Assembly: GCF_009791395.1 (NCBI RefSeq)
Contig: NZ_WSZK01000004.1
Span: 1 to 34,567 of the forward strand
Direction: 5' to 3'
Source: Halomarina oriensis
GTDB taxonomy: Archaea; Halobacteriota; Halobacteria; Halobacteriales; Haloarculaceae
Length of the DNA: 34,567 bases
Shown: positions 3,025-31,062 of the stretch, one piece after another
How positions within the stretch are numbered: position 1 is the stretch's first letter
How the letters are laid out: each line of letters opens with the position of its first letter
Position numbers and translations under genes: made by a program
The notes under the pieces: model-generated
What the model was told of the DNA's origin: nothing
What the model saw: only the letters and a program-made list of their open reading frames with translations
The model's database searches: none

Positions 3025-3773
3025 CACGCCGTCGCCGTGACCTCATCAAGCGCGTTCGCCACGCGCTCGTCGTCGGCCTCGAGGTCGAGATACCAGCGCC
3101 GGCGTTCCTCATTGTTGTCGAGATTCGACAGTGAGCGCCGGGTGCAGACCATCTCACTCGCAAGCCCCCGATAGGACGCCCGAGGATTCTCGTCGAGGAT
3201 GCGCATCGCCTCGGCGACCGTCCAGAACCCGTCACGCTCCTCGTCGAACTCGTCGTAGAAGTCGACGTTTGCGATGAGGTAGCCGTCCTCGTCGGTCGTG
3301 AACCCCAGCGGGACACCGCCGACCCACTTCCCCGCGCGGAGCGCTCGCTGCTGGCCGTAGCGAGTCCGACGGATGAGCGTTCGGCGCTCCTCGGCGTACA
3401 CCGCTGCAAGGATGTCGGCGACGAATCGGTTCGTCCCGTCCGGTTTGATTTCTCGAATAGATCCACTCGTCACGTGAACGTGGACGTCGTGGTCCTCACA
3501 GAGATTGAAGAACGTCTGGGCGAGCTGTCCCTCGCGTGCGATACGCGAGAGTTCCCAGACGACGACGTGGTCCACCTCGTCGGCCTCAATCCGGGCCATG
3601 AGTTCGCGGAGTTGCTCACGCGAGCGGTCGGCCCCGCTACCCGTCTCGCTCAGCACGTCGACGTCGGCGAAGTCGACGCCCTCCCGTTCGAACCACTCGC
3701 GGATGGCCTCGAACTGGTGCTCGTTCTCCTGCTCGAATTTGCTCCTGCGAACGTACGCTGTGACCCGTTCCAT
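3024..3773 (-). CDS. Serine recombinase, resolvase/invertase type
   Basis: The product has 249 residues. The N-terminal catalytic domain shows AYVRRSK with the likely nucleophile Ser11 and Arg9, a GSGADRSREQL stretch, and VVWELSRIAREG with Arg77 and Arg80. A long-helix/linker region follows (RRTRYGQQRALRAGKWVGGVPLGF, about 135-158). The last 90 residues carry a helix-rich, possibly DNA-binding part (TVAEAMRILDENPRASYRGL) rather than the large zinc domain of phage integrases. The start at 3773 is chosen because a TATA box lies about 30 bases upstream; an ATG 30 codons earlier precedes that box. It probably resolves or inverts DNA at sites on the element. Confidence 0.9.
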   Translation of the reverse strand: MERVTAYVRRSKFEQENEHQFEAIREWFEREGVDFADVDVLSETGSGADRSREQLRELMARIEADEVDHVVVWELSRIAREGQLAQTFFNLCEDHDVHVHVTSGSIREIKPDGTNRFVADILAAVYAEERRTLIRRTRYGQQRALRAGKWVGGVPLGFTTDEDGYLIANVDFYDEFDEERDGFWTVAEAMRILDENPRASYRGLASEMVCTRRSLSNLDNNEERRRWYLDLEADDERVANALDEVTATA

Positions 3774-3800
3774 CTCTGTTCTCGTTTCCACACTTCGGAG

Positions 3801-3808
3801 TATATAAA
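3801..3808 (-). promoter_or_regulatory. TATA box of the serine recombinase gene
   Basis: TATATAAA on the plus strand (minus reading TTTATATA) lies about 30 bases upstream of the ATG at 3773. This is the spacing of a near-leaderless archaeal transcript and supports the shorter start. Confidence 0.65.
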
Positions 3809-3894
3809 ACTCCGCTCCCGTTACCAGTCTGGGAGCATCCGACCGTTCATTACCATCCTCCACCGACCATCACGGTCATGATCTCGACTGCCAG

Positions 3895-12022: not shown

Positions 12023-12201
12023 CGCTCGTCCCTCCACTCCGAGACGACGTCCATCCGGCGGTTGGCCTCCGTGAAGTCGCGCGTTCCTGCGAGTTCTTCC
12101 ATGCGGTCCTTGAGATAGGCGACGTCGAGGGCGTTCATCTGGGACTTCGACCCGGCGCGGAGTGCCCCCTTCGCGTCTTCGAGGTGTTCGTGGTTGCTCA
12201 T
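12019..12201 (-). CDS. Hypothetical 60-residue helical protein
   Basis: It overlaps both neighbours by four bases (ATGA), which supports its reality and co-translation. The sequence is helical and charged (LKDRMEELAGTRDF, ANRRMDVVSEWRDER) with no cysteine or membrane segment. No family is recognised. Confidence 0.65.
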   Translation of the reverse strand: MSNHEHLEDAKGALRAGSKSQMNALDVAYLKDRMEELAGTRDFTEANRRMDVVSEWRDER

Positions 12202-12983
12202 CGCTCTGCTCTCACCATCCCTGACTCGCGGAACGTAACCGACAGGCCGGCGTCGTTAAGCAGCGCCAGTGCGCGCTCGTCGTCGATGCGGTGGAGTTCG
12301 ACGAACGCGACACGGACGTCACCGAGCAGGTCGCCCAGACCGTCGAGTACCATTGCCTCGGCCCCCTCGACGTCCACCTTCAGCACGTCGGGTGTGTCGG
12401 CGGCCACCTCGTCGCCACGGGCCGTCTCGACCTCAACGACCGCGCCGTCCTGCCAGTCGTCCAGGAGTGACCCTCGACCCGCGCCGGCACCGTCGGCACA
12501 CCGATTGTCGAGCGTGAACGATGCGATCCCGGCCTCATTCGAGAGTGCGACCGAGCGGACGTCCACACGGTCGCCCAGTCCGTTCCGAGCGACGTTCCGG
12601 GCGAGTGCCCGGCGGTTGGCCTCAACCGGCTCGAACGTGACGACAGACGCCCCTCTGGACGCGCCGAAGCACGCCCACGACCCGACGTTCCCGCCGACGT
12701 CCCAGACCGTGTCGGTCGGTTGGAGGTCGTCGAGGAACGCCGAGAGCATCGGTCGCTCCAAGGCGATTGCTCGCATGTGGTCCCACTCGCTCGCAGTCTG
12801 ACGGCGGAAACGTACCGTCTCGCCACTGATTGTGACCGTCTTGGTGTTGGTGGTCAGCCAGTGGAGCGAGCGAGCACGGCGGTGGAGGCTCCACCGAAGT
12901 TCGTCGACGGCCATCCGGATTCCATCGACGCCGTTCTCGCGGACGCTCGACCCGGCGTAGCGGACGAAGCCCGTGGCACCCAT
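12198..12983 (-). CDS. FkbM-family methyltransferase
   Basis: The product has 261 residues from the ATG at 12983; the longer frame to 13157 would overlap the upstream gene. Motif I DVGGNVGSW (95-103), TFEPVEANRRAL (motif II region, about 116-127), VRSVALSNEAG, and VLKVDVEGAEAMVLDGL (FkbM signature) are all present. FkbM enzymes are S-adenosylmethionine-dependent methyltransferases acting mainly on sugars or glycolipids. In a haloarchaeal element it may modify surface glycans, for example S-layer N-glycans, and so alter recognition by viruses or partners. That role is inferred. Confidence 0.85.
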   Translation of the reverse strand: MGATGFVRYAGSSVRENGVDGIRMAVDELRWSLHRRARSLHWLTTNTKTVTISGETVRFRRQTASEWDHMRAIALERPMLSAFLDDLQPTDTVWDVGGNVGSWACFGASRGASVVTFEPVEANRRALARNVARNGLGDRVDVRSVALSNEAGIASFTLDNRCADGAGAGRGSLLDDWQDGAVVEVETARGDEVAADTPDVLKVDVEGAEAMVLDGLGDLLGDVRVAFVELHRIDDERALALLNDAGLSVTFRESGMVRAER

Positions 12984-12984
12984 C

Positions 12985-13236
12985 TCAGTCACCCCGCTCC
13001 TCGGCCTCCTCGACGAGTCGTTCGACGACCTCGCTGCCGAGCGTGACGAGTTCGCGGTCGCCCTGGACACGCTGGTAGAACGAGATGCCGCCACTGTCGA
13101 GTAGCGAGACGTCGGTCTCGCGGATGATGAGTTCGCCTTCGCGCGCGAATTCCTCACGAGCGCGGAGCTTCGTTTCGACGCCGTTGTCGACTGGTTCTAC
13201 TTCTTCGATTCCGGTCCGCAATTGGTGTCCTGGCAT
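12985..13236 (-). CDS. Hypothetical acidic 83-residue protein
   Basis: It starts at MPGHQLRTGIEEVE and contains a beta-rich middle (REGELIIRETDVSLLDSGGISFYQRV) and an acidic helical end (SEVVERLVEEAEERGD). It lies one base upstream of the FkbM gene, as the first gene of the operon. A short dyad TATCG-G-CGATA overlaps the region just before its start. The function is unknown. Confidence 0.6.
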   Translation of the reverse strand: MPGHQLRTGIEEVEPVDNGVETKLRAREEFAREGELIIRETDVSLLDSGGISFYQRVQGDRELVTLGSEVVERLVEEAEERGD

Positions 13237-17743: not shown

Positions 17744-18413
17744 GGCCCTCGGAACACCTCCAAGGGACCGACCTTGTCTGCCCCCGGATTGCACCGAGTC
17801 GTGCCGATTTTTTCAGACCCCTTCATAACGTGTTGAATAGTACACGTCGGGTCTGCGGCAGAACTAAGGCGATTCGTTCTCCACATCCGACTGTTCCCCC
17901 GGACCGGGGTATGGCTTTCGCGGTTCATCGTTTGGCGGGCTGTGTAAACCGGCCCGTACGGTAGCCCGAACCCCGGACTGGGGGAACGCGACGATAACCA
18001 CGGGCGTTGTGTCCTGGCAGACTTGTGCGCCCGTGGTGCTAGTCGCCGGTTAACTTGGACTGATGACTCATCAGATATAACATTGTTCGTAAGCGGATTG
18101 AATCGTGTAACATCAAATTCAGTCTCGCTAATAGCATCCCAGTTATCCTGTGCTTGGTCTCTGTCGTTTGAGAGGGGTTTATCACCTCCCGCGTGGGTAT
18201 CTTGCATTGCTGTTTCGGCAGCACCGGGCCGGGGTCTACACCCCCGGTCCACTTTCGTTCTGACGTGAACCCCATGGACCCGGTGACTGTCCAGTCGCTA
18301 CGAAATCCTGTTGGAACATAAATGTAGCCCTATACAGGTTCACCAACACTCTGTATGGGGCTAACTTATCATTGTTCGTAGGTGTTAACCGCCGTTCTCC
18401 GGAAGTACAGCCA
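17744..18413. other. Long structured non-coding region with many inverted repeats
   Basis: I see dyads ACGTGT/ACACGT (17828-17847), an 18-base near-perfect inverted pair (17893-17910 with 17970-17987) whose left half is itself a GC palindrome, ACCACGGGCG/CGCCCGTGGT (17997-18006, 18028-18037), TGATGA-C-TCATCA (18061-18073) and CCGGGGT/ACCCCCGG (18229-18247). CATTGTTCGTA occurs twice (18081-18091, 18370-18380). A minus-strand frame from 18207 begins acidic and protein-like but then loses coding character. The region may be an origin, a structured RNA or decayed coding DNA. Confidence 0.5.
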
Positions 18414-18689
18414 ATGAAGCCCCGGCCGCCCTGGGCGGGTAAGTACGACGAGCCGATCCTCGAACTCTTAGAGGCGTCTGGGGTCGCTCTCCCTCCTGCG
18501 GTCGTCCACTTCAATCTCCGCTGGAAGAACGTCGCCACGCCAGCAGATTCCACGGTGAAGCGTCGGCTTCGGAAGCTCGCTGAACACGACTACTTGGAAA
18601 AGGTCGAGCAGAACGCAGGCTACTACGCAATCACCCAGAAAGGACGCGATTACCTCGCCGGCAACCTCGACGCTGACGAACTGGATTAG
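18414..18689 (+). CDS. Winged-helix repressor-like protein (phiH1-repressor type)
   Basis: The 91-residue product begins MKPRPPWAGKYDEPILELLE, which resembles the common haloarchaeal winged-helix proteins related to the phiH1 repressor. It continues with LPPAVVHFNLRWKN, the recognition region STVKRRLRKLAEHDYLEKV and a wing GYYAITQKGRDYLAG. The start is chosen at this motif rather than the upstream ATG at 18372. It overlaps by its stop with a convergent 29-residue zinc peptide. It may regulate the par genes that follow. Confidence 0.8.
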   Translation: MKPRPPWAGKYDEPILELLEASGVALPPAVVHFNLRWKNVATPADSTVKRRLRKLAEHDYLEKVEQNAGYYAITQKGRDYLAGNLDADELD

Positions 18690-18775: not shown

Positions 18776-18828
18776 GCCCCGACGTTCTTTTGAGCCGATG
18801 TAGTTCTATTCGATACTGTCTGACGAAG

Positions 18829-18896
18829 TATTATTAGTGACGCTTGTAATATTGGTAATACCGGTGTTGCCAGTAACACCAGAAACACCAATCACC
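18829..18896 (+). promoter_or_regulatory. parA promoter and leader with 9-bp repeats
   Basis: TATTATTAG (18829-18837) is a likely TATA box. The leader holds consecutive 9-bp units GTAATACCG, GTGTTGCCA, GTAACACCA and GAAACACCA (18855-18890), running up to the ATG at 18897. GGTGTT/AACACC (about 18863-18880) also forms a dyad. It is probably the binding site of the partition partner, giving autoregulation. Confidence 0.65.
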
Positions 18897-19721
18897 ATGA
18901 CGCAACCAGCAATCATCGCCTGCTCGAATCAGAAAGGCGGCGTCGGGAAGACCACAGTTGCCATCAACGTCGCCGGGGCGCTCGCTCAGCGCGGCCGTAA
19001 CGTGCTGTTCGTCGACCTCGACCCTCAGGGGAACGCCACCGAAGGACTCGGCTTCGCGGGGGCGTACGACGACCAGCCTCCGTCGCTGTACGACGTTCTC
19101 ACCGACATGGACCAACGCTCGGCCATCAACGACCTCGTGCTCGAACACGAGGAGATGGACGTCGTCCCGTCGAACATCGAGATGTCCGCCATCGAACCGG
19201 ACCTCGTTGTCTCTCGTCGCGGCGGCGAACAACTCAAGCTCGCGCTCGGCCACCTCGACCACGAGTACGACTACATCTTCATTGACTCGCCGCCCTACCT
19301 CGGCTACGTCACGGACAACGCCTTGGTCGCCGCCGAGAACGTGCTGATTCCGGCACTCGCTGAATCGACGAGTCAACGCGCCCTCGAACTCCTGATGACG
19401 CACTGCCGGCAACTCGAAGACGAGTTCGAGATGGAAATCGACGAAGTGGCGCTGGTCGCCAACCGCGTCGAGCAGAACAACGACGCACAGGCGATGATGG
19501 ATTTCTTCGAAATGGCGTTCGACGACGTCCCCGTGTTCGAGGTGCGAAAACGAGTCGCCCTCCAGCGGGCGTTCACCGCCGGGAAGTCGATTTTCGAGTA
19601 CGACCCCGAGTGCGACCAATGTGAAGTGTTCCTCCGGGTCGGCGACGCTCTCGACCGACAGTTCGGGTTCGACATGCCAGATGGCCGGACCAAAGACATC
19701 CTCGGAGACTTCAACGAATGA
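18897..19721 (+). CDS. parA: ParA-family partition ATPase
   Basis: The 274-residue product starts MTQPAIIACSNQKGGVGKTT with a deviant Walker A (residues 13-20, Lys13 and Lys18). LFVDLDPQGNATEGLGF (Walker A' region) and YIFIDSPPYLG (Walker B) follow. This is the standard ParA/Soj/MinD-type fold, and the protein would position or segregate the plasmid using ATP-dependent binding to the nucleoid. The ORF extends 20 codons upstream, but that part encodes the repeat-bearing leader (Val/Pro/Thr-rich), so the ATG next to the fold is preferred. The stop overlaps the partner gene start. Confidence 0.95.
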   Translation: MTQPAIIACSNQKGGVGKTTVAINVAGALAQRGRNVLFVDLDPQGNATEGLGFAGAYDDQPPSLYDVLTDMDQRSAINDLVLEHEEMDVVPSNIEMSAIEPDLVVSRRGGEQLKLALGHLDHEYDYIFIDSPPYLGYVTDNALVAAENVLIPALAESTSQRALELLMTHCRQLEDEFEMEIDEVALVANRVEQNNDAQAMMDFFEMAFDDVPVFEVRKRVALQRAFTAGKSIFEYDPECDQCEVFLRVGDALDRQFGFDMPDGRTKDILGDFNE

Positions 19722-20167
19722 CTGACGAAGACGACGAGGGAACGCTGAACTTCGAGGACCGGGCCGAACGCCTCGGCAAGAGCCGGAAGAAATCGGCCGA
19801 CAACGCCCGGCGGAAGGCCGCCGACCGGAAGCGAGAGGAATCGGAAACACCAGCAACACCAGCAACACCGGAGGCCGACGAGAGCAAAGACGACGCACCG
19901 AAGCCCTCGGTGAAAGACGTCTACGACCCGTTCAACTCCTACATACCGCTCGACCTCAAACGGATGCTGAAACTCCGCTACCGGCAGGCGAGCGTCGAGG
20001 TCGAGATGGCGACCGGCGAGGACGGCGACCCGCTCGAACTCGAAAAGAACCGCCACTGGTACCCCTTGGTTATTAAAGCCGGCCTCGACGCCCTGGAGGA
20101 CGTCGACGGCGAGGGCCTCGCTGAGCGTGCCCGAGAGCTCGAAGAGCGGACGCACTCAGAAGATTAG
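19718..20167 (+). CDS. ParA partner, putative centromere-binding protein
   Basis: The 149-residue product overlaps parA by four bases. Residues 1-60 are charged and disordered (RKKSADNARRKAADRKREE) and include an ETPATPATPE stretch encoded by three 9-bp repeats. The folded C-terminal part (DVYDPFNSYIPLDLKRMLKL, then EKNRHWYPLVIKAGLDALED) resembles the conserved end of small proteins that follow parA in haloarchaeal plasmids. By position it should bind the partition site and stimulate ParA. It has no ParB nuclease-like domain. Confidence 0.75.
   Translation: MTDEDDEGTLNFEDRAERLGKSRKKSADNARRKAADRKREESETPATPATPEADESKDDAPKPSVKDVYDPFNSYIPLDLKRMLKLRYRQASVEVEMATGEDGDPLELEKNRHWYPLVIKAGLDALEDVDGEGLAERARELEERTHSED
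19844..19870. repeat. Three 9-bp repeats inside the partner gene
   Basis: GAAACACCA, GCAACACCA and GCAACACCG are consecutive at 19844-19870. They match the units upstream of parA and those in the 1450-residue gene, but are read here in the frame GNA-ACA-CCA (Glu/Ala-Thr-Pro). Confidence 0.85.
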
Positions 20168-20424
20168 ATTCCGCGACGAGGCGAGTGCTTCGATGCTCGG
20201 TCTGGGCCAAGTTTGTGCAGGCCGATGGAGTAGAGCAGGACCGCAGTAGTCGCACACAGAATTAACGTTGCTACACCTATTGCCTGAAGACCCGCAATTA
20301 GCGCGTCTGCTCCACCAGCAATGGAAAGCGAGTTGTACTGGTACATCACTTCGAGAGCCGACCACCGGACGCCGAGTGCTGCCCCAAAGGCCAATGCGAT
20401 TCGGATGATGAGGAATCCGTTCAT
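20164..20424 (-). CDS. Small membrane protein (86 residues)
   Basis: Hydrophobic stretches at about residues 3-20 and 40-66 (AGGADALIAGLQAIGVATLI, LCATTAVLLYSIGL) indicate two or three membrane helices with a basic C-terminus. Its stop overlaps the end of the convergent partner gene. It is divergent from the Tat lipoprotein gene, with a 57-base shared promoter region. No family is recognised. Confidence 0.65.
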   Translation of the reverse strand: MNGFLIIRIALAFGAALGVRWSALEVMYQYNSLSIAGGADALIAGLQAIGVATLILCATTAVLLYSIGLHKLGPDRASKHSPRRGI

Positions 20425-20451
20425 CTATCTGTGAACAGCTTTGTCCGTGAA

Positions 20452-20460
20452 CTTATAAGC
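20452..20460 (+). promoter_or_regulatory. TATA box of the Tat lipoprotein gene
   Basis: CTTATAAGC centred about 26 bases before the ATG at 20482 is a good leaderless archaeal promoter and supports that start over the upstream ATG at 20431. Confidence 0.7.
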
Positions 20461-20481
20461 TTGTGGACTAGTTCGATAGCT

Positions 20482-21276
20482 ATGAAACGCCGTGCGCTTC
20501 TCGGGATGCTCGGGGCGGTCGGAGCGACCGCGCTCTCCGGATGTGTCTCGCGAGACGACGTTGATGAAGCCCTGCCGTGGGACGCCGCAGGACGGGCGCT
20601 CTCGGAGGCGAGCGACTACACCGATTCGGATGGTCGAACGCACTTCTCAGTCGCTAGCGGTGGCTACATGGCCGCAGAGTGGCGGCCGAACGGTCGCCTC
20701 GCCTTTGAGTTCATTGACGACCCGCCGATGATGGAGTGGCTCCTCATCGATCCCAATCGAGATCTCCGGGCATCGGGTCGACCACCGGAGTTCGGCGGGT
20801 GGAACAGCGTCGAGATGCGCTACCCGCTGATGGAGGGCTGGTGGGAGCTCTCTGGTCGAACCATCGCAAAGAGCGAGTCCTCGGTCCTCGGTGCCGAGGA
20901 GAAGCGCACCGGTGGCTGTGGCATCCCCGTCGACCCGCGTGTCCAGGTGGACGCCGTCGACGTCGAGGATGGGACCGGAAAGGCGCAACTCGAACTCTCG
21001 AACCCAGGCCGCGCCCCGCTACATGTGAGGGGCGTCCGATTCAGCGGCGATGTCGCCATGCGTTCCACGATGAAGCACTGGGCGTTCGCTGAGGGCGAAC
21101 ACCTGCTGATGCCCGGCACGACCGTCAACTTGACCTCGGTCTCAATGCCGTTCGTCGACGGGATGCCCGAGTCGTTCGGCATCTCGCTCTGGGCCGGGAA
21201 TCAGGCTTGGAACGTCGCCGTCGAGAACGATGCGCTCGGTGCGACAGCGAAGAACGCGACGGCGGAAAAGGAGTAG
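20482..21276 (+). CDS. Tat-exported lipoprotein, function unknown
   Basis: The 264-residue product has a twin-arginine signal with a lipobox: MKRRALLGMLGAVGATALSG followed by Cys21, a typical haloarchaeal Tat lipoprotein anchor. The mature part has a beta-rich C-terminal half (VQVDAVDVEDGTGKAQLELS, HVRGVRFSGDVAMRS, MPGTTVNLTSVSMPF) like an immunoglobulin-type or cupredoxin-like sandwich, but no metal-ligand set is visible. It would sit on the outer face of the membrane. It is not part of the leftward cluster, but its surface location fits the envelope theme of the region. Confidence 0.8.
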   Translation: MKRRALLGMLGAVGATALSGCVSRDDVDEALPWDAAGRALSEASDYTDSDGRTHFSVASGGYMAAEWRPNGRLAFEFIDDPPMMEWLLIDPNRDLRASGRPPEFGGWNSVEMRYPLMEGWWELSGRTIAKSESSVLGAEEKRTGGCGIPVDPRVQVDAVDVEDGTGKAQLELSNPGRAPLHVRGVRFSGDVAMRSTMKHWAFAEGEHLLMPGTTVNLTSVSMPFVDGMPESFGISLWAGNQAWNVAVENDALGATAKNATAEKE

Positions 21277-21287
21277 TCCGACGTCGT

Positions 21288-21554
21288 TTACTTCTGGTCC
21301 CACTTCTCGGCGACCGCTTCGGCCGTGAGTGGGAGGTCATCGTCGTGGTCTGTAGACTCAGCTTTGTTCTCCAAGTGGTAGTGGTATCCAGAGAATACGG
21401 CGGCTGTCCCGACGGCCAGTGTCACCGCAGCGGCCCAAGGACTGTAAGACTGCTCCAAGAGCGACGGGAGGAAGAGAGCAATCAAGCCCGAGGCGATAAA
21501 CCATGCACCAGAAAAGAACAGGAATCTCGATACGCCGTAGCGAACTACACTCAT
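21288..21554 (-). CDS. Small membrane protein (88 residues)
   Basis: From MSVVRYGVSRF, two membrane helices (FLFFSGAWFIASGLIALFL and PWAAAVTLAVGTAAVFSGY) are followed by an acidic cytoplasmic tail (ESTDHDDDLPLTAEAVAEKW). It lies 37 bases after the protease gene in the same direction and may be a read-through extension of the big cluster, or have its own promoter. No family is recognised. Confidence 0.65.
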   Translation of the reverse strand: MSVVRYGVSRFLFFSGAWFIASGLIALFLPSLLEQSYSPWAAAVTLAVGTAAVFSGYHYHLENKAESTDHDDDLPLTAEAVAEKWDQK

Positions 21555-21591
21555 ATCGAGACCTTCTACTGAACGTACAAAAAGTAACGGT

Positions 21592-22296
21592 CTATCCTGA
21601 TACCTGCTCGTCGGCCTCGACGCCGGCAGGCGACAGGTTGCGTCGAAGCAAATGGACCGCATACGCCAGTGGGAACGCGAGGTCGGCCTTCGAGGGGATA
21701 GCGTACCGGAGGACCATCGTGACGACGACGATCCGCGAGACGGCCGACCCTAACGAGATGGTCGGCGAGGTCGCCGCCAGTCCCCACTGAGCGATGAACG
21801 CCAGCCAGACCGCGCCCACGAGCGTCGGGCCGATGGAGACGAGCACGATACCCCACGCGGGCGTCTCGTCCGGGAGGGTGACGTCAACGCCGAGGACGCC
21901 GTCGTCGTTGTGCCACTCGACGACCCGACCACCGAACGCCCGTGCGAACCCGGCGTGAGTCGCCTCGTGGAGGACGTGAGCCGGGGCGAAGACGATGTGC
22001 TGGAGCGCCGGCATCTCTTCAGGAAGTGGGAGGACGCCTCGACGAGTCGCTTCGTCGGCGATGAGTCCCACGATGAAGAAGGCGGCCGCACCGAAGAACA
22101 CGATGCGCCCCCAGACCGGGAACGCGAGGAACGCGCCGAAGCCCAGCAGGTTCGCCAGCAGGCTCCGCAGGGCGTGGGTCTCGAAGCGCCCGTCGTACCA
22201 CTCTTGATGCGCGGGCGACGCCGGGGCGTCGGAGTTGGCCGCCCGCGTGAGCGTCGTGAGACGCCCCCTGAGCGCCTCGGTGATGAGTCCCAGCAT
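21592..22296 (-). CDS. Membrane-embedded zinc metalloprotease-like protein
   Basis: The 234-residue product has the zinc motif HEATH (His110, Glu111, His114) in the hydrophobic context FAPAHVLHEATHAGFARAFG, plus a later AIPSKADLAF segment with an Asp that could be the third ligand, as in membrane site-2-type proteases and DUF3267-like proteins. Four to five hydrophobic spans are visible. It is the last gene of the 14-gene leftward cluster. It may process or mature the membrane or surface proteins encoded upstream. That role is inferred. Confidence 0.7.
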   Translation of the reverse strand: MLGLITEALRGRLTTLTRAANSDAPASPAHQEWYDGRFETHALRSLLANLLGFGAFLAFPVWGRIVFFGAAAFFIVGLIADEATRRGVLPLPEEMPALQHIVFAPAHVLHEATHAGFARAFGGRVVEWHNDDGVLGVDVTLPDETPAWGIVLVSIGPTLVGAVWLAFIAQWGLAATSPTISLGSAVSRIVVVTMVLRYAIPSKADLAFPLAYAVHLLRRNLSPAGVEADEQVSG

Positions 22297-22608
22297 CTAC
22301 CGCACCGCCCGGTAGAACATCCAGAGGAACGCACACGCGGCCGCCGTGATGAACAGGAGCGTCACCTGTCCGGCGAGGGCCGGAATGTAGCTCGACATGA
22401 TGCCGACCATGATGATGGCGACGACCGCCGGGAGCAGAACGCTCCGGGTATAGATGGCCAACGCCGAGAAGACGGTGAAGCCGACGATGAGGACGAACAT
22501 CCCACCCATCGTCGAGAGGAACGGGCAGAGAATCGCGTCTGCCCAGTTCCCGCTGGTCCACTGGTCGGGGCCGCACTGTGCTGTGATTTGGAGAGGTGTC
22601 TCGGTCAT
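22297..22608 (-). CDS. Small membrane protein with cysteine pair (103 residues)
   Basis: Three hydrophobic spans (about residues 32-50, 54-72 and 80-98) follow a soluble N-terminus with Cys12 and Cys28 (ITAQCGPDQWTSGNWADAIL, CPFLSTMGGM). The product directly abuts the protease gene. The size and topology recall small inner-membrane subunits of secretion or conjugation machines, but no homology is claimed. Confidence 0.7.
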   Translation of the reverse strand: MTETPLQITAQCGPDQWTSGNWADAILCPFLSTMGGMFVLIVGFTVFSALAIYTRSVLLPAVVAIIMVGIMSSYIPALAGQVTLLFITAAACAFLWMFYRAVR

Positions 22609-22612
22609 GGTC

Positions 22613-22969
22613 TCAGAGTTGCGTTCGCAGGACGACGGTCACCATCGCCAGCGCCATCACCAGCGCAATCGGTGACGTCACCCAGTTGGCGATGTAGACC
22701 GGCACCCCGAGATTCATCAGGAACCCCGTCAGATTCGAGAGAATCGAGATACCGGTCGTGAGGATGTCGAGAGCCGCCAGCGGCGAGAGCGACCCGCCCT
22801 CGGTGACACCGCCGTCGACGTCACCGGTGAGGTCCTCGTTCGTTCGTTCGATGTCGGTCTGCCCACCGGTCACGAGGTCGAAGCCCAACAGTGGGGCGAC
22901 CGTCGAGTTGACGAGCGTCACCGTCGCGATGAGAATGAAGACGCCGATAGCGAGTTCGGTAGCCCGCAT
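22613..22969 (-). CDS. Membrane protein with acidic loop (118 residues)
   Basis: An N-terminal hydrophobic helix (LAIGVFILIATVTLVNSTVA) resembles a signal anchor or pilin-like segment. It is followed by an acidic Gly/Thr-rich loop (ERTNEDLTGDVDGGVTEGGS) and two hydrophobic segments (ILTTGISILSNLTGFLMN, SPIALVMALAMVTVVL). It sits two bases after the LamG-type gene, so it is co-transcribed and may anchor or assist it. Confidence 0.7.
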   Translation of the reverse strand: MRATELAIGVFILIATVTLVNSTVAPLLGFDLVTGGQTDIERTNEDLTGDVDGGVTEGGSLSPLAALDILTTGISILSNLTGFLMNLGVPVYIANWVTSPIALVMALAMVTVVLRTQL

Positions 22970-22970
22970 C

Positions 22971-25900
22971 TCAGGCCCTCCTCGACGCCGCGAAGCCGAC
23001 GACGGAGAGTGAAATCGCGAACATCAACACCGTCTGCGGGATTTCGAGGTAGCCCATCACGGCGAAGATGCCCGTCAGCCCGGCCGTGATGACTGCGCCG
23101 GTCGGGGCATGGATGAAGCCGAACACGCCCGCAACAAGCAGGATAACGCCTCCAAGCGCCACTTTTGTCCAGAACTCACTGAGTCCCAGCGGTGTCGCGG
23201 TCCCATCGGCCCCGACGCGCCACGTCCCGTCGATGTGCTGGGCGGGTTCGTCGGCGTCGCCAGTCGGGTAGAGTTCGGCCTCCCACGAGATGGTCCACTC
23301 TGTCTCGGATTCATCTGCGGGAATCGGGATGTTGGCGTTGTAGGACCCGACGGTCCCATACGCGTAGAGTTCGTCGAGGACATTCGACGGGTCACCGCGC
23401 TCGTGAATGACGATGTGGAGGTCCTCGATACGGCGATCTCGCGCGTTGAACTTGAACAGGAGTTCGCGACTGCCGATTGTCTCGTTCGTCACGACCGACT
23501 CAACCTCCCACTCGTAGGTCGTCCCGCGCTCGAGGCCGAACGTCTGACCCTCGACGATGAGGTTCCGTGTCTGCTGGGCGAATGAGGAGTCGCCACGGTA
23601 GCCACCGAGGTTCCGGCGGTCACCCTCATCACGGATTGCGAGGCGGTAGTCTTCCTCGTCGACGAGGTCGAAGCAGACCGAGTTCGCCGCGCCGAAGTAG
23701 CCGCCGGCCATGTCTCGCCACGACCCATTGATGTGCTGCTGGACGATGAGCCAGCTATTGTCCGGCGCGAACCCCGCACCGCGTGAGTCGAGGGCAAAAC
23801 ACTGGCTGTAGCCTGCTGCGGACGAGGAATCGATGAGGTTCGTGTGACGCTCGACGGTCCCGTACGGGTTGTCCACGAGCATCGTCCGCGTGGTGTAGTT
23901 CGCCGCAGAGATGCGGAGCGCCAACTGCTCATCGGGGAGCTGTCCGAACGTGATGGTCCCATCAGAAGTCGCTCGTTCGGTGACGAAGTTCGACATCGAT
24001 GCCGTCCCGACCATCTCGACGGTCACCTCCTTGGTGAGCAGTTGCGTTCCGTTCTCATGATGAAGATAGAGAATCATCGGACTCCTGAACCCACGCTGTT
24101 CGGTCTCGACGGTGTGGCCGTACTCGTCGGTCGCTGCGGCCGACCACGTGTGATGACCCCCGGGAATCTCACCGGGTGAATACTGCACGGTGCCTTCGGC
24201 GTTGACCGTCTGGGTCGAGACCACCTCGCCATCGATTCGGATGTCGACAGTGACGCTATCGCTCTTCGCCGTCCCAAGGTCCGGGTCGGTGACGTTGACG
24301 GCGAGATGCTCGGAGGTGCCGTTGAGCTTCCCACCATCTTCGGGCATCCAGAGGTCGAGCGTCGGTTCGACTGTCTTAGACATGACCCCTTCACCGTATA
24401 GACGGGCGAGCGCGTTCGGTCCGGTCGCGGTAAACTCAACCTCGGTCGTCACGGTGTCAGTCGTCGGGCGAGTCCAAGTGGCCGAGTGGTTCCCCGTCGT
24501 GGTGAACGTCGCCTGCGTGAGGACCGTCCCGTCAGCGGCCTTCCACGTGACGTCCGCCTTTGCGTTCTGGAGTTCAAGGTCAGCGAACCCCTCGATAGTG
24601 TTCGACATCGAATGCTCGTTCGAGTAGGTCGACGACTCGGGGAGTTGTGCAGCCGGGTTGTCCGCGAGGAACTGGACCTGCTCGCTCGTGAGAATCGTCG
24701 AATCCATCAGTCGGACATCGTCGAGTGTCACATTCGCGTGGCGATAGTCGCCATACGACCCGAGCGTCATCGGTTCAGAGTTCTGACTCGGCGATTTCGG
24801 GACGTTGACGGTTTTGATGAGCTCGCCATCGACGTACACGTCAATCTCCCCCGACGAGTGAACGACCGCCAGATGCGACCAGGTACTATCGAACAGCTCC
24901 GGTGTGTCGACGGTCGCATCCCAATCGTCATGCTCGAGGAACAGCGTCCCGTCGTTCGCACCGATCGCCCAACCCGGTTGCAGTGCGTTCGATTTCTTCG
25001 TCACCAACCCAACACGGAATTCATCGGGCGGGGAGACCTCTCTGTCCGCTTTGACCCACATCGAGATAGAGTACCCAAAGCTGAGGTCCGTCCGGTACGA
25101 ATCTGGCACGCTGAGGCTGTCGTCGTCGTGATAGCCGTCGAATCGGAGCGCCGTTCCCGACGCGCCACTCACCCACTCCGGCGAGTTCTGAAACGTCCCG
25201 TCGAACGTATTGCTCGGACCGACCGTCCCGTATGCCGTCGAACCCACCCCTGCGTCAAGCGCGAGTCGTTCACTCGTCACCGGACTCAGCTTGCTGTTTG
25301 GCGACTCCGTGAGCCGATAGAGTTGCCCTGGTGCGAGTGCGTCGTCAAACGTCCGGATGTCGTGATAGCGCATCTCCTGCGAGCCGCCGTAGTAGCTGTT
25401 CTCGAATGGACCAGTGATGTCGACGCTCCCGACTGCGACCGTCGTCTGCGTGACGAACCGTCCGTTCAGTCGAAGCGTCATCGTATCTCCTCGACGAGTG
25501 AGCGAGACCGTGTGTTTCTCGCCCGCTTGAGCGTAGTCTGTGGGCGGTATCGGTCCAGATGAACCGCTGTCGAGCCCGAAGACACCCGTATTATCTGAGC
25601 CCCCGCGCACAATCGCCTCGACCTCCTCGTTCCCCTGGCGGTTCCAGAAGAACGCTATCGCGCCGGTCGACCCGTCGTCACCCGCACCGAATCGCATCAC
25701 CTTACCGGATTCCGGCGTGAACTGCATCGCCACAGTCCACGTTGTGTCACTCCCGAAATTGACGCTCGACGCTGGAAGTTCCAGTTCCCCACCTCGCATG
25801 TCGAGACCATCAGTCTGCCATTGGTAGCTGCCAGAAAGTGACCCATCGAACTCACTCACGTCATCGTAGAGGGTTTGAGAGATGGAATCTATCGGATAGT

Positions 25901-26141
25901 GCGTCCGGGTCTGTGAGAGGTGGGTGTCGTGGCTGACGAAGCCGGCTTCTCCACTTCGTTCGACCTCAGCGTTCGTCGTTGAGCCGTTCGATAGTTCGCT
26001 CGCCGTTGTGTGCATGCTGGCGAACGCGCCGTGGGTCGCGGCGACCGGTGCGGAACTGGCAACGAGGAGCGTGAGGATGACTGCGACGACCGCGAGAATC
26101 GTCCCTGCGAGCGAGACGTCGATGGTTCCGGGCCGATGCAT
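22971..26141 (-). CDS. Large surface protein with two LamG/ConA-like lectin domains
   Basis: The 1056-residue product has a signal sequence at about residues 9-36 (AGTILAVVAVILTLLVASSA). Two concanavalin-like/LamG domains follow, at about 100-285 (TWTVAMQFTPESGK, HTVSLTRRGDTMTLRLNGRF, MRYHDIRTFDDALAPGQLY) and 325-490 (GTALRFDGYHDDDSLSVPDS, GYSISMWVKAD, EIDVYVDGELIKTVNVPKS). The next 400 residues look like beta-sandwich domains (DIRIDGEVVSTQTV, VTVEMVGTASM). About three membrane helices close the protein (KVALGGVILLVAGVFGFIHA, then two more). It should be a cell- or particle-surface adhesin that binds glycans. It is the best candidate for the recognition protein of this cluster. Confidence 0.85.
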   Translation of the reverse strand: MHRPGTIDVSLAGTILAVVAVILTLLVASSAPVAATHGAFASMHTTASELSNGSTTNAEVERSGEAGFVSHDTHLSQTRTHYPIDSISQTLYDDVSEFDGSLSGSYQWQTDGLDMRGGELELPASSVNFGSDTTWTVAMQFTPESGKVMRFGAGDDGSTGAIAFFWNRQGNEEVEAIVRGGSDNTGVFGLDSGSSGPIPPTDYAQAGEKHTVSLTRRGDTMTLRLNGRFVTQTTVAVGSVDITGPFENSYYGGSQEMRYHDIRTFDDALAPGQLYRLTESPNSKLSPVTSERLALDAGVGSTAYGTVGPSNTFDGTFQNSPEWVSGASGTALRFDGYHDDDSLSVPDSYRTDLSFGYSISMWVKADREVSPPDEFRVGLVTKKSNALQPGWAIGANDGTLFLEHDDWDATVDTPELFDSTWSHLAVVHSSGEIDVYVDGELIKTVNVPKSPSQNSEPMTLGSYGDYRHANVTLDDVRLMDSTILTSEQVQFLADNPAAQLPESSTYSNEHSMSNTIEGFADLELQNAKADVTWKAADGTVLTQATFTTTGNHSATWTRPTTDTVTTEVEFTATGPNALARLYGEGVMSKTVEPTLDLWMPEDGGKLNGTSEHLAVNVTDPDLGTAKSDSVTVDIRIDGEVVSTQTVNAEGTVQYSPGEIPGGHHTWSAAATDEYGHTVETEQRGFRSPMILYLHHENGTQLLTKEVTVEMVGTASMSNFVTERATSDGTITFGQLPDEQLALRISAANYTTRTMLVDNPYGTVERHTNLIDSSSAAGYSQCFALDSRGAGFAPDNSWLIVQQHINGSWRDMAGGYFGAANSVCFDLVDEEDYRLAIRDEGDRRNLGGYRGDSSFAQQTRNLIVEGQTFGLERGTTYEWEVESVVTNETIGSRELLFKFNARDRRIEDLHIVIHERGDPSNVLDELYAYGTVGSYNANIPIPADESETEWTISWEAELYPTGDADEPAQHIDGTWRVGADGTATPLGLSEFWTKVALGGVILLVAGVFGFIHAPTGAVITAGLTGIFAVMGYLEIPQTVLMFAISLSVVGFAASRRA

Positions 26142-26414
26142 CTACAGCACCCCCAGATACGCCAACGTCGCCAATAACATCATAAAGGCCCAGACGGAGA
26201 CGATGAACACCATCGCACTCGGAATCTGGACGAGCGCGATGTTCGCCCCCCGGTCGATGGTTTCGTTCTCTACGGAGAAGCCCTCCCCGTCACTGCCCAT
26301 CGATGTCTTCGCCTCCTCGCTCAGAACGCCCAGCAGCGTCGGTGCGAATGCGTTGGTGATGATGACGGTGAGAACGATGGCGACGATGGCAACGAAGCCC
26401 TTGATGGCGCTCAT
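26142..26414 (-). CDS. Small membrane protein, two helices (90 residues)
   Basis: From MSAIKGFVAI, an N-terminal helix (IVAIVLTVIITNAFAPTLLG) and a C-terminal helix (PSAMVFIVSVWAFMMLLATL) flank an acidic outer loop (EEAKTSMGSDGEGFSVENET). It ends next to the start of the LamG-type gene. The same helix-acidic loop-helix layout recurs in the 98- and 118-residue neighbours, suggesting related subunits. Confidence 0.7.
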   Translation of the reverse strand: MSAIKGFVAIVAIVLTVIITNAFAPTLLGVLSEEAKTSMGSDGEGFSVENETIDRGANIALVQIPSAMVFIVSVWAFMMLLATLAYLGVL

Positions 26415-26416
26415 CG

Positions 26417-26713
26417 TCAGGCCCTCGCTGAGAGAACGACGGCCATCACGATGGTGAACACCACCACGAGGAACGTCCCGACGACCGGGAGTGCGTTCCA
26501 CGCATCCGTGATGCGCTGGTTCATCGTCGCCGCCTCTTGTTCGTACTCGGTGCCGTCGTTCTGGTCGTCAGAGAAGTTCTGGACCTTCGTTATCGGTGTC
26601 GTCATCATCGAAAGAATCAGCGCGATGAACGCGAACGCGATGAGCATCAACACGAGCTGATACCCGACGCCCCGGTCATCGTCGCGGAGTCGCTCGGCGA
26701 GACTCGGACTCAT
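26417..26713 (-). CDS. Small pilin-like membrane protein (98 residues)
   Basis: The ATG overlaps the stop of the 1450-residue gene. The N-terminus LAERLRDDDRGVGYQLVLML, followed by a long hydrophobic helix, looks like an archaeal prepilin or flagellin leader (charged, then Gly, then hydrophobic). The middle is Gln/Asn/Glu-rich (FSDDQNDGTEYEQEAATMNQ), and a second helix (VVGTFLVVVFTIVMAVVLSA) makes it unlike a true pilin. It may be a two-span subunit of the envelope assembly. Confidence 0.65.
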   Translation of the reverse strand: MSPSLAERLRDDDRGVGYQLVLMLIAFAFIALILSMMTTPITKVQNFSDDQNDGTEYEQEAATMNQRITDAWNALPVVGTFLVVVFTIVMAVVLSARA

Positions 26714-29700
26714 CGGCCGAACACCTCGCGGAGCGATGCCACATCGTTCGTAAAGCGCTTCGACCACTCGCTGGACGGACCGCTACCGAGCAGGTCGTCG
26801 AGAGACTGCTGGCGACCGCGCGCGAACATCTCGCTCTCGGATTCGAGTTCGGTCTCGAATTCGAGTTCCATCTCCATCTCGAACTCGCTTTCCCACTCCA
26901 TCGCGCGCTCAACCTCGAACGCCGATTCCCACTCGGTAGCGAACTCGGACTCCCACTCTGATTCCCACTCACTCGCCCATTCCGACTCGATGAGCGACTC
27001 GAATTCGGTGTCGACCTTGCTCTCGATAGCCGTCTCGACGAGCGCCTCCTGGTCGCCCACGATGTCGCGCATGTCGACACGCTGCTCGCCGGCGACGTCG
27101 GCGACGATGGCCGCCGGGTCGAACGTCGATGTCTCCTCAGCGAAGCCCGCGACTTCTGCGCGGCCGGCGATGTCTGCGAGGTCAAACGCGTCTCGCGAAC
27201 GATTGTCGAGTTCGAGTTCGGCGAGACGGTTGGGATTGACCTCGTCGCCCATCCGGAGCAACGTCATCTGGTCGCCGCTGCGGGCGGGCGTGAACCCCGA
27301 TTCGATGCGGCCCGTCGACGGCCCGGTAAGGTCGTCGATGTCTTCGGTCAGGCCCATCCGCATCCAGGCCTTCTCGGTGTCGCTCCAGCCGTCGACTTCG
27401 AGGTCGACGGCGTCGGCGTCAAGCGAGTAGTCTCGGCGGTCGGGCACGTTACCATACAATCGGTTGGAACCGACCTGTATGGTAAACTCGCTGGGGAGCG
27501 ACTTCGCGTTCCACCACTTCGTCTGTGCGTTGACGAGACCACTTCGGACCGACTCGTCGAACGACGTACGTCGGGCGTCGAGGCCAGCGCTAAGCTGTCC
27601 CCGCGCGAGCGCCGCGTCGATGGGGAGGTCGGTGTCCCAATCGCTGAGCGAGTCCGTTGCGGCGTCGAACTGTCCACGAAGTCGCGCAGCGGAGAGGCCG
27701 ACGTCGGCCCGGCCGCTGCGAAAGTCTTGGAGAGGACGCTTCACCCGCTCTTTCGTTCGGAAAAGGCGGTCTGACGCCCGCCGTCGGCGAGTGTCGTACG
27801 TGTCGGCGAGGCGGCCCCGGGCGATACCGAGGTCGATGCCGAGGTCGTTCCGGACGTCGTCGAGACGAGAGGACTGGCGGTCCTGCTCGAATCGGTAGCC
27901 GGCCCGCCACGCGGCGTCGTTGAGGTTCGCCTGTGACTGAAGCGGCGCGGGAAGGCGCTGACGGGCGTTCTCGCGCGCTCGGGGGCCGAGGCCGGCCATC
28001 CAGTCCTCGGTGTTCCACTTCGCCGTCTGTCCGCGCACAGCGGCCGACAAACCCGCGTCACGCCCCCGGCCAGGAAGCGACCCGGCCCACTCCTCGATGT
28101 CCCACTTCGACGACTGGGCGCGGAGCGCTGCGGAGCCAGCAGCACTCCGGGTCCGGCCGGGCAGGGAGCCGACGATGTCCTCGGTGGCCCACCGACCCGC
28201 CTGAGCGCGAAGCGCGCCATCCATCGCGAGGCCCCGCGCCGTCGGCGTCGACGAGTCGGCGAGGTCACCGAGAGCGATCTCGGCGTCCCACCAGGCACGC
28301 TGGGTTCGCGCAGTGCCGGTCGTCGCCAGCCCTCGAAGGCGGTCGGGAGTCGCGGCGAGCGCCTCACGGCCCTTCCACGCCATCGTCTGGGTGTCAACGG
28401 CCGTTCGGAGCGCTCGGTCTCGCGTGCTGTCGCGAGCCTGCTCGAACCAGTCCTGTCGGTTCTGGCGGGAGCGAGCGGAGCGCCGGCCCAGCGACCGGGC
28501 CGTGGCGTCGAGGCCCGCCTGCGTCGGTGTGAGGCGCGTCTTCGCGTTGTCGATGCCGAGGCGGGCATCGTCGAGGCGACGGTTCGTCCCGGCGAGCGCC
28601 TTCTTCGTGTCGTACTTGAGCGCGGGCGAGAGTTTCACGAGGCCGGCATCGGCATCGCGCTCGACCGTCACCCAGTCGGAGGCGTCGAAGCCCGACCCGT
28701 CGTCCCGACCGGGGAGTCGGTCACGAACTGAGAAGTCCTGATCGGCCCGAAACTCGCCGACACGTTGCTTCGCCCCCCGGTAGGCGCGCTTGCCCTCGCG
28801 GATGATGATTTCCTCGTTGTCGATGCGGCCGCCGGGGAACTTCGCCGCGACGGAGGGGAACAGTCGCGTCGCCCCCGTCGAGAGCAGTTCCTCGCCGGGC
28901 TGGATGGCCCACGCCGCCGACCGACCGGCCGTCGACGAGACCCGTGAGGCTCCCGCGATGGCCCCGTAGGAGCCGACGAGTGAGCCGACGAGTTGGCCGG
29001 CCCCCTTCGATGGATTCGCCGTCACGCTGTCCCACGCGGAGACTGCTGCCATCTCTGCGGTAGCGCTCACCTTTTTGCGAGCGTCTTTGCCCTCGCCGGC
29101 GAGTTCTCGTCCACCGTACCACGCGGCGAGTTCGCCGAACTCGTCGAGGCCGCGAACGGTCGCCGGAACGTTTGCGATGGCGAGTGCGCCCTCGGTCGTC
29201 CCGGCTGCGAAGTTGCCGACGAAGTTCGTTCCGGTCGTCCGGCGTTCGAGCATCCCGACCGGCGAAATCGTCGAGGTGAGTTCGCCGGCGTCGCGAGCGA
29301 AGCCCTGGTAGTCTCTCGAAAGGCCGTCGAGGAAGTCCTCTCCACCCGGAACGAAGGCGACACGGCCGCCGTCGTCACCGAACCTCTCGGGCCTCTGGTT
29401 CGCCTCTTGGTACGCTTGCTGCCCCTCCTGGGCGAACGAGACGTCCCACGCACCGCCCTCGTAGTCGACGAGGACCTCACTCGGGTCGAAGCCCGGCGTC
29501 TCGGCGGCGACCTCCCGCTTCGTCCGCTGAGAGACCGTCGCGACGCCAGAGTCGGTGAGCGCGACGTCGTAGGTCGTCCGACCGTCGAGGTCGCCCGTGC
29601 GGGTTTTGACGAGTTCTGTCGCGCCGTCGACGCGGAAGTCCTCCGCGTTCAGGCCGGTCGACGCCTCGACCCGCTCGCGCATGGTGTCTTTCGGGTCGAC

Positions 29701-31062
29701 CCAGCGCTCGGTCTGTTCTTCGAGACGGCCGTCCTCGGCCGCGTTCAACACGTCGGTCCCCGTCCCATAGACGTCGAACGGGTCCTCGACGACTCGGACC
29801 TTTCCGGGGTTCGCTGCTCGGTCGAGGGCCGCGTCGATTTCGTCCGACTGGGCGGCGTTCCGGCGCTGCTCCATGTTCACCTGAGCGGCATCAGCGAGAA
29901 TCGTCGCTGTCTGACGACGACGCTCCTGCTCGCTCGTCGAGAACTGTGCGGAGTAGCGGCCGTCCTCGCCCTGTGTCAACTCGAACTGCTCGTCGGCGAG
30001 GCCGGTCGTCGCGCGGACCTGCTGGCGCATCGCATCTTCGAGGCCCGTGTCGGTGAATTCGACGTTCAGCCTGCCGTCTTCCTCGGTGATGGCGTAGTCC
30101 TCGGCGGAGAACTCCTCACCGAAGTAGTACGACTCGGTAACCGTGTCGCCCGACCCCAGCGTGGCCTCAGCGACAATTTCGCCGTCGTCGCCGTACCGGA
30201 TACTCGTCGAGTCGACGTCGCTGTACTGGGCGTTGAGCGACTGGTACGCGATGTCCAACCGGCCGCTCTTCGAGGCGAGACGACGTTCGAGGGTCTCGCG
30301 CTCGCGGTCGGCGATGGCGGCCTGCCCCTGCTCGGTCAGGGTCGCCGAGAACTCGTCGGCCTGCTCGTCGTAGATGATACGCACCTGCTCGGAATCCGTC
30401 AGCCAGTCGTTCGAGGCGAGGATGTCCTGCTCGGCCCTCGTCGCCGCATCGCCCAGACGACCGCCGTCCTCCTCGACGCCCTGCCACGTCCCGAGGTTCT
30501 GAGAGGTCGAGAGGTCGTAACTGAGAATGGACGTCCCGCTCCCGCTGGAGTTCGTCAAGGACCTCGACGACGATGCTGACCTACCCCGACCACTCGTGTC
30601 GCGCCGGGTCGGTTCTGGTTGCTCGCGGACGGTCTCGCCGTGGATGCCACGAATAGCGTCTTCGACGCTGCTCGACCGAGTGTTGCCGCCGTCACTCGTG
30701 TTCTGAGTGTCGCGAGTGTTACTGGTGTTTCCGGCGTCGCCAGTGTTGCTCGCGTCCCGGTCATTGCTAGTGTTGCTGGCGTTCCTGTCGTCGCTGGTAT
30801 CCGGTTCCCAGATGACACCAGTAGGAGTGTTTCGAGTGTTGCTGTTGTTACTGGTATTACTGCTGTTGCTTGTGTTTCTGGTGTTTCGGGTGTTGCTGTT
30901 GTTGCTGGAGCGCGTCGGTTCGGGGCGAGACTGCTCACGAAGCATCTCCTGAGCCGCCTCGACGGTTTCCCGGTCACTCATCTGGTCGTCGCTGTCCGAC
31001 GACGAAGACGAGGAGGACGACCCAGAGCCACTCGACGAACGGAAGCGTGAGGTGTCGGCCAT
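26710..31062 (-). CDS. Giant repeat protein (1450 residues), low-complexity ends
   Basis: Residues 1-30 are Ser-rich. Residues about 53-129 are Asn/Thr/Ser/Arg repeats encoded by a 9-bp DNA repeat. Residues 230-620 are mixed alpha/beta with repeated DxxTR..VxAxTGL-type units (MRERVEASTGLNAEDFRVDG, MRQQVRATTGLADEQFELTQ). Residues 630-770 are Ala/Gly-rich and amphipathic. Residues about 885-1035 hold about 33-residue repeats with LRAQ.SKW..E.W.GSLPGR. Residues 1342-1412 are Glu/Trp/Phe repeats (ESEWASEWESEWESEFATEW). No family, signal or clear membrane span is recognised. Length and helical repeats recall scaffold or tape-measure-like proteins, which is inference only. It is the central gene of the cluster. 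Confidence 0.8.
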   Translation of the reverse strand: MADTSRFRSSSGSGSSSSSSSSDSDDQMSDRETVEAAQEMLREQSRPEPTRSSNNSNTRNTRNTSNSSNTSNNSNTRNTPTGVIWEPDTSDDRNASNTSNDRDASNTGDAGNTSNTRDTQNTSDGGNTRSSSVEDAIRGIHGETVREQPEPTRRDTSGRGRSASSSRSLTNSSGSGTSILSYDLSTSQNLGTWQGVEEDGGRLGDAATRAEQDILASNDWLTDSEQVRIIYDEQADEFSATLTEQGQAAIADRERETLERRLASKSGRLDIAYQSLNAQYSDVDSTSIRYGDDGEIVAEATLGSGDTVTESYYFGEEFSAEDYAITEEDGRLNVEFTDTGLEDAMRQQVRATTGLADEQFELTQGEDGRYSAQFSTSEQERRRQTATILADAAQVNMEQRRNAAQSDEIDAALDRAANPGKVRVVEDPFDVYGTGTDVLNAAEDGRLEEQTERWVDPKDTMRERVEASTGLNAEDFRVDGATELVKTRTGDLDGRTTYDVALTDSGVATVSQRTKREVAAETPGFDPSEVLVDYEGGAWDVSFAQEGQQAYQEANQRPERFGDDGGRVAFVPGGEDFLDGLSRDYQGFARDAGELTSTISPVGMLERRTTGTNFVGNFAAGTTEGALAIANVPATVRGLDEFGELAAWYGGRELAGEGKDARKKVSATAEMAAVSAWDSVTANPSKGAGQLVGSLVGSYGAIAGASRVSSTAGRSAAWAIQPGEELLSTGATRLFPSVAAKFPGGRIDNEEIIIREGKRAYRGAKQRVGEFRADQDFSVRDRLPGRDDGSGFDASDWVTVERDADAGLVKLSPALKYDTKKALAGTNRRLDDARLGIDNAKTRLTPTQAGLDATARSLGRRSARSRQNRQDWFEQARDSTRDRALRTAVDTQTMAWKGREALAATPDRLRGLATTGTARTQRAWWDAEIALGDLADSSTPTARGLAMDGALRAQAGRWATEDIVGSLPGRTRSAAGSAALRAQSSKWDIEEWAGSLPGRGRDAGLSAAVRGQTAKWNTEDWMAGLGPRARENARQRLPAPLQSQANLNDAAWRAGYRFEQDRQSSRLDDVRNDLGIDLGIARGRLADTYDTRRRRASDRLFRTKERVKRPLQDFRSGRADVGLSAARLRGQFDAATDSLSDWDTDLPIDAALARGQLSAGLDARRTSFDESVRSGLVNAQTKWWNAKSLPSEFTIQVGSNRLYGNVPDRRDYSLDADAVDLEVDGWSDTEKAWMRMGLTEDIDDLTGPSTGRIESGFTPARSGDQMTLLRMGDEVNPNRLAELELDNRSRDAFDLADIAGRAEVAGFAEETSTFDPAAIVADVAGEQRVDMRDIVGDQEALVETAIESKVDTEFESLIESEWASEWESEWESEFATEWESAFEVERAMEWESEFEMEMELEFETELESESEMFARGRQQSLDDLLGSGPSSEWSKRFTNDVASLREVFGR
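27449..27485. repeat. Interrupted palindrome, copy D, inside the giant gene
   Basis: TTACCATACA (27449-27458) and TGTATGGTAA (27476-27485) are exact 10-bp arms. The spacer contains its own dyad, CGGTT/AACCG. Here the site is translated as part of the protein (FTIQVGSNRLYGN) without breaking the frame. Confidence 0.85.
30678..30905. repeat. Array of about 23 degenerate 9-bp repeats
   Basis: Plus-strand unit TGGTGTTNC (minus GNAACACCA). Nine contiguous units run 30825-30905, and about fourteen more degenerate units run 30678-30803 in a register shifted by three bases. Units identical to those near parA include GTAATACCA-like and GAAACACCA. The array encodes the Asn-Thr-Ser/Arg repeats of the giant protein. 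Confidence 0.9.

Follow-up and report, generated by a model that had tools for sequence, protein, structure and literature searches.

A 9-bp DNA repeat recurs in the leader of a haloarchaeal parA gene, inside the adjoining gene for a small ParA partner and in a giant gene on the same contig. In the first two places the repeats very likely have a function as DNA, judging from sequence comparisons, and they are probably binding units of the partner that would serve both partition and autoregulation; partner binding and this dual role are proposed because of the analogy with omega of plasmid pSM19035. One and the same stretch of DNA seems to be protein-coding and, likely, a sorting or control site.

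The parA operon and its surroundings

The window, i.e. the whole stretch of DNA that was analysed, is the entire contig C34, 34,567 bp long, from the draft assembly of a haloarchaeal genome 4.07 Mb in size. Its relevant features are as follows:

3024-3863: resolvase gene
13550-16501: probable replication gene, 983 aa (phrog_17376 'replication protein', 405 bits; no Pfam family)
18819..18842, plus strand: promoter-proximal box GTCTGACGAA...TATTATTAG upstream of parA, found also at many haloarchaeal parA genes outside the AAACGA repeat class
18851..18892, both orientations: parA leader array of AACACC-class 9-bp units, a 42-bp imperfect palindrome
18897..19721, plus strand: parA, a ParA-type Walker ATPase of 274 aa (Pfam AAA_31, E=1.1e-44; phrog_164 ParA-like partition protein, E=2.1e-53)
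19718..20167, plus strand: partner gene, 149 aa, its start overlapping the parA stop by 4 bp
19844..19870, plus strand: partner-gene array of three 9-bp units, ETP-ATP-ATP, inside a low-confidence linker
22971-26141: LamG-domain gene, in a minus-strand cluster with the giant gene
26710..31062, minus strand: giant gene, 1450 aa
30678..30786, minus strand: giant-gene block 2, about twelve units, eight with at least 5/6 core bases, out of register with block 1
30826..30908, minus strand: giant-gene block 1, about nine AACACC-class units, read Ser/Arg-Asn-Thr

The parA product carries a KGGVGKT motif and shares 64% identity with plasmid ParA proteins from Halobacterium and Halomarina. The 4-bp overlap of the two genes is also found in most relatives' operons, where the small partner lies directly downstream and the pair forms one operon; partner relatives occur in 136 of 391 haloarchaeal genomes. 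Viral contigs hold one partner relative, and AACACC-type repeats are present among them as well. Upstream of the window parA lies a winged-helix gene (18372-18689), a position taken by other genes in annotated relatives.

The gene at 13550-16501 is probably the replication initiator of the window's element. A role of the repeats as replication iterons was considered and set aside: this gene is 2.4 kb off, and the motif scan saw no array beside it. A minus-strand ORF at 12198-13157 (319 aa) matches an FkbM-type methyltransferase domain (Pfam, E=8e-15).

Of 29 distinct leaders outside the AAACGA class, 16 contain the promoter-proximal box in the form GTCTGAC[AG], in most cases at -41 to -45 relative to the ATG; in the window it stands at -79. 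It is followed by a TATA-like stretch and is found in operons of differing repeat classes. The initial annotation took the parA leader as non-coding, which relatives support in that they favour the ATG at 18897, although an open reading frame from a GTG at 18837 runs through the leader in frame with parA.

The repeat in the window and its genome

The window contains 7 copies of GNAACACCA, where 0.5 would be expected, and 17 matches to the two-unit pattern AAYACCNGNAAYACC (up to 2 mismatches), where 0.8 would be. The initial annotation's observation that leader, partner gene and giant gene share one repeat is thereby confirmed, above chance expectation. It had counted about four units in the leader and three in the partner gene: the three stand, while the leader holds two perfect units on the plus strand (18873 and 18882), one degenerate (AATACC, 18857) and one inverted, with 30 of the 42 palindrome positions matching the reverse complement. 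Reading frames are as it described, GNA-ACA-CCA in the partner gene (more generally GNA-ACA-CCN, Glu/Ala-Thr-Pro) and AGN-AAC-ACC, or rather AGN-AAC-ACY, in the giant gene. For the latter, the array itself is borne out but the figure of about 23 units includes degenerate ones: 17 of about 21 units keep at least 5/6 core bases (nine from a list of core matches, eight in block 2 counted by eye), and a motif scan likewise gives 17.

Across the 4.07-Mb genome, the motif search proposed in the initial annotation finds the three-unit pattern, with up to 2 mismatches allowed, nowhere but in the partner gene and the giant gene. The only exact match to the two-unit AACACCAGAAACACC outside the window contig is a single one at 61068-61082 of contig C48, just upstream of a possible gene; it may be due to chance.

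Three ParA-partner systems with three different repeats coexist in this genome: AACACC in the window, TCCRAAC on contig C45 and GAACAC on contig C30. No significant cross-matches were detected among the repeats of these systems. On C30 the repeats lie in both leader and partner gene (p=0.002). On C45 they lie at the leader, with matches at and upstream of parA, and the partner linker there has no in-gene array; 6 of the 7 three-unit TCCRAAC matches in the whole genome fall on this contig. Two TCCRAAC arrays of C45 are far from parA: one, at about 24562-24595, is apparently intergenic; the other, at about 83776-83800, occupies the first codons of a regulator-like gene, where it reads Thr-Glu-Pro three times.

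Repeat classes across haloarchaeal operons

Most of the haloarchaeal parA-partner operons examined carry 9-bp repeats in the leader, in the partner coding sequence or in both. Many partner genes encode linkers with a period of three amino acids, which at the DNA level are 9-bp repeats; a similar unit is found in the leaders. The class of the repeat changes in step in leader and partner gene, the classes being AACACC (window), AAACGA, TCCRAAC, GAACAC and TCTAAGA. We found no GNAACACCA at parA genes up to 64% identical on named plasmids, and the four-unit window pattern has a single, unrelated match in 391 haloarchaeal genomes. This absence from relatives was rejected as a refutation, because the repeat unit changes from class to class.

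Five candidate cores scored over 101 operons yield a near-diagonal class table; as the cores were picked after inspecting the operons, the table is a description with internal controls rather than an independent test. Two-unit AAACGA matches are present in 61 of 62 leaders and 62 of 62 linkers of their own class and in none of the 33 TCCRAAC-type operons, and two-unit AACACC matches in the window operon only. Just 8 of 33 leaders and 8 of 33 linkers of the TCCRAAC type reach the two-unit threshold, since this class is degenerate.

The window linker has 43 9-mers in common with its own leader, against 3.5 after synonymous recoding (p=0.002, the floor of 501 trials). Values of p ≤0.006 were also obtained for the AAACGA class and for loci L021, L023, L025, L032, L048 and L051, while for L019, L024, L027, L033 and L049, among others, leader and linker share no more than expected under the same recoding; these p-values are uncorrected over 35 operons, near-identical operons being counted repeatedly. 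Given such operons, and the C45 linker without an array, an in-gene array is not obligatory.

When leaders and linkers of 17 representatives were compared crosswise, the window leader matched the window linker with z=14.1, the median for other leaders being 0. TCCRAAC-type operons tend toward mutual matches, and L025 (whose 'leader' takes in the first codons of its parA), L031, L032, L048 and L051 each match themselves best. Motifs derived de novo from single plasmids were blurred; on the small complete plasmids L047 and L048, clusters appeared only in or near the partner gene.

Constraint on the AAACGA class

Searching genome contigs with a profile yielded 66 named loci. Among the fetched loci, all 50 AAACGA-class operons have a three-unit array in the partner gene. 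AAACGA clusters number 90 in leaders and 1 elsewhere in 830 kb, with none for the reversed pattern, and leader arrays reach to about -430. In 12 whole genomes of this class, arrays are confined to the parA operon and one remote place; the reversed control gave 0.

The six core codons GAA/ACG/GAA/ACG/AAA/ACG show 0 synonymous changes out of 289 in 54 distinct partner genes of the class. Codons of the C-terminal domain in the same genes have a mean heterozygosity of 0.29, and 23% of them lie below 0.15; some other partner codons being invariant too, the signal resides in six of six core codons and not in any single one. Glutamate in the linker is encoded by GAA in 76% of cases, against 36% in the remainder of the gene. 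Part of this conservation reflects descent, because the class genes are closely related. Still, descent would not readily explain synonymous sites of the core that are frozen though the residues there and the neighbouring bases vary.

The partner protein

In the AlphaFold2 model of the partner, an N-terminal helix with many Arg and Lys residues is followed by a low-confidence linker, which contains the array-encoded residues, and then by a conserved helical C-terminal domain. In the C-terminal model (pLDDT 83), helices 16-37, 48-59 and 69-85 follow a short strand-like stretch. Foldseek and VIA-align, run with the full and C-terminal models, returned no usable match to solved structures, and no sequence relative was found in the PDB; with the fold unmatched, a ribbon-helix-helix can only be guessed at. 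Just ahead of the first C-terminal helix the sequence varies by class, namely GTYMYLP for TCCRAAC, GRTIYIP for AAACGA and FNSYIP for the window; this would fit a DNA-reading strand, though the fold searches lend it no support.

Arrays in remote genes

The giant gene has no Pfam, NCBIfam or PHROG family match. It holds the longest array, yet it is the least certain part of our explanation: the chances that this array is a functional site are about even. Scored with a motif built from leader and partner gene only, the array reaches 176.6, against 96 +/- 17 for synonymous recodings (0 of 3000 as high). Its serines use AGY in 13 of 14 cases, against 31 of 123 elsewhere. On the other hand, permuting the array's own codons leaves the motif score nearly identical, and 8 of 15 threonine codons are ACT, departing from AACACC, so that tandem duplication without selection could give the signal. 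The initial annotation had placed the main centromere here, which the sequence evidence does not establish: many units end in ACT, and elsewhere the main array is at parA or in the partner gene.

Relatives of the giant gene occur once more in the same genome (contig C21) and in five further genomes, in a class-wide search with a 530-residue piece; plasmid and phage records gave none. Their readable N-terminal linkers are Ser- or Gly-rich and without a repeat. Relatives keeping Asn-Thr repeats in other codons, which the initial annotation had named as evidence against a role of the DNA, offer no such comparison, the linkers being Ser/Gly-rich. Together with the LamG-domain gene, the giant gene makes up a conserved two-gene module found again in several haloarchaeal genomes; the N-terminal linkers are hypervariable and of low complexity.

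An AAACGA array is likewise found inside the gene of a 1281-aa conjugation-type ATPase, on three contigs that carry an AAACGA parA operon. The gene (L253, 14063-17908) is annotated as an ATP-binding protein and adjoins VirB4; the array reads Asn-Glu-Gly/Arg, in a frame different from that of the partner gene. ATPase orthologues 82-93% identical, on three plasmids without AAACGA arrays, have no array. The insertion is also absent from two 75% identical orthologues on AAACGA plasmids (J7-2 and Halorubrum hochsteinianum). Remote arrays sit at least 15 kb from parA on the same replicon.

Proposed function and alternatives

We propose that a two-gene haloarchaeal partition system, consisting of ParA and its small partner, uses the 9-bp repeat as its DNA recognition unit, which differs from class to class. 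The arrays would be bound by the partner, or by a partner-ParA complex. Those at the parA promoter may regulate the operon, with the partner repressing parA, and also mark the plasmid for ParA-driven segregation. In-gene arrays would be placed where a flexible linker tolerates tripeptide repeats, that is in the partner gene in most classes; on some replicons further arrays would lie in a distant gene, here the giant gene. A partition-site repeat bound by the ParA partner was already suggested in the initial annotation: position, co-variation and replicon specificity make a partition or operator site of the partner the most likely reading, but fold searches did not confirm a DNA-binding fold for the partner. 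More tentatively, and with slightly less than even confidence, we envisage a general haloarchaeal partition system whose centromere is largely written in coding DNA. The linker would then be a by-product of the bound array, the array would evolve in interchangeable specificity classes that confer plasmid compatibility, and extra arrays would have spread into unrelated linkers, such as those of the giant gene and the conjugation ATPase.

Could the repeats be operators only, autoregulatory sites at the parA promoter and within the transcription unit, with the segregation site elsewhere? In many operons the leader arrays do lie between promoter box and start codon, the classic position of an operator, and the partition role is read from position and specificity. 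Yet the AAACGA leader arrays extend far upstream, the remote arrays of the same replicon would be needless for an operator, and one cell harbours differing classes, which is what compatibility between partition systems would lead one to expect; we therefore consider this explanation unlikely. Some exact tandem repeats in haloarchaeal genes, such as KNE and NET repeats, clearly have a mutational origin, and repeat expansion or copying between leader and coding sequence might have left DNA without function here as well. The giant array could stem from tandem duplication, codon permutation keeping most of its score. For the leader and partner repeats, however, such an origin is disfavoured and quite improbable: core synonymous positions are frozen over the 54 genes while neighbouring bases and residues vary, and leader and linker switch class together.

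It is very improbable that the repeat belongs to the protein, with linkers needing their tripeptides (Thr-Pro, Asn-Thr sequons etc.) and the DNA match simply following from codon choice. When translated, both the partner array and the giant array do yield low-complexity linkers, and relatives of the giant gene have low-complexity N-terminal linkers too. But the match is lost on synonymous recoding and the serine codons of the giant array are strongly skewed to AGY; a leader array has no need to be translated, different genes read the unit in different frames, and what is seen in the AAACGA class is the opposite of tripeptides kept with other codons. The initial annotation's argument for selection on the DNA is accordingly well supported, given the synonymous-codon null, the co-variation of class between leader and partner gene, the absence of synonymous core changes among 54 relatives and the replicon-specific placement. 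We return to a recognition unit of the partner as the preferred reading.

Relation to known partition systems

The pNOB8 AspA-ParB-ParA system of Sulfolobus is, like the present one, a ParA system of an archaeal plasmid with a site upstream of the operon; it has three proteins and one 23-bp palindrome, in contrast to the two-gene operon and 9-bp arrays described here (PMC5120986). In SegAB of Sulfolobales and some Euryarchaeota, SegB sites are mostly intragenic, some of them within segAB (PMC12284271, PMC5120986). SegAB resembles our operons in its archaeal ParA-type ATPase and small partner, its overlapping genes and its sites both upstream of the operon and inside genes; SegB, however, binds 13-bp palindromes (TCTAGA-S-TCTAGA) and not tandem 9-bp units. 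No relationship of the partner to SegB was detected, and the window shows no enrichment of TCTAGA-S-TCTAGA (3 matches at 3 mismatches, where 5.5 are expected; none near parA). As SegB binds intragenic sites, an archaeal ParA partner with such sites is in itself nothing new. In Bacillus subtilis, too, a parS site lies inside the spo0J/parB gene, so that a segregation site is contained in the coding sequence of its own binding protein; it is a single 16-bp palindrome, not an array that sets linker residues.

As far as the open-licence literature shows, the novelty lies in the 9-bp arrays of haloarchaea, in the specificity classes that they form and in the way they are written into the partner linker; we found no description there of haloarchaeal plasmid centromeres. 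The appearance of archaeal plasmid centromeres has been listed as an open question (PMC5120986), and the defined repeat classes offer a concrete candidate for the haloarchaeal one. If true, the arrays would clearly exemplify a DNA site that dictates the residues of a protein linker, and they might supply a rule by which the compatibility of haloarchaeal plasmids could be predicted from sequence.

A close parallel in design to our proposal comes from Firmicutes plasmids: the delta/omega system of pSM19035 pairs ParA with a ribbon-helix-helix ParB, and its heptad arrays at par promoters are operator and partition site at once, at least 4 contiguous units being required for ParA activation (PMC9499535). 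Both systems have short contiguous non-palindromic repeats in mixed orientation that overlap par promoters (PMC9499535). They differ in the unit, 9 bp here and 7 bp there, in the arrays that here also occupy coding sequence, above all the partner gene, and in the partner, for which neither sequence nor fold comparison detects a match to omega. The leader arrays do provide contiguous short repeats at the par promoter, a feature of type Ib systems such as delta/omega and ParF/ParG.
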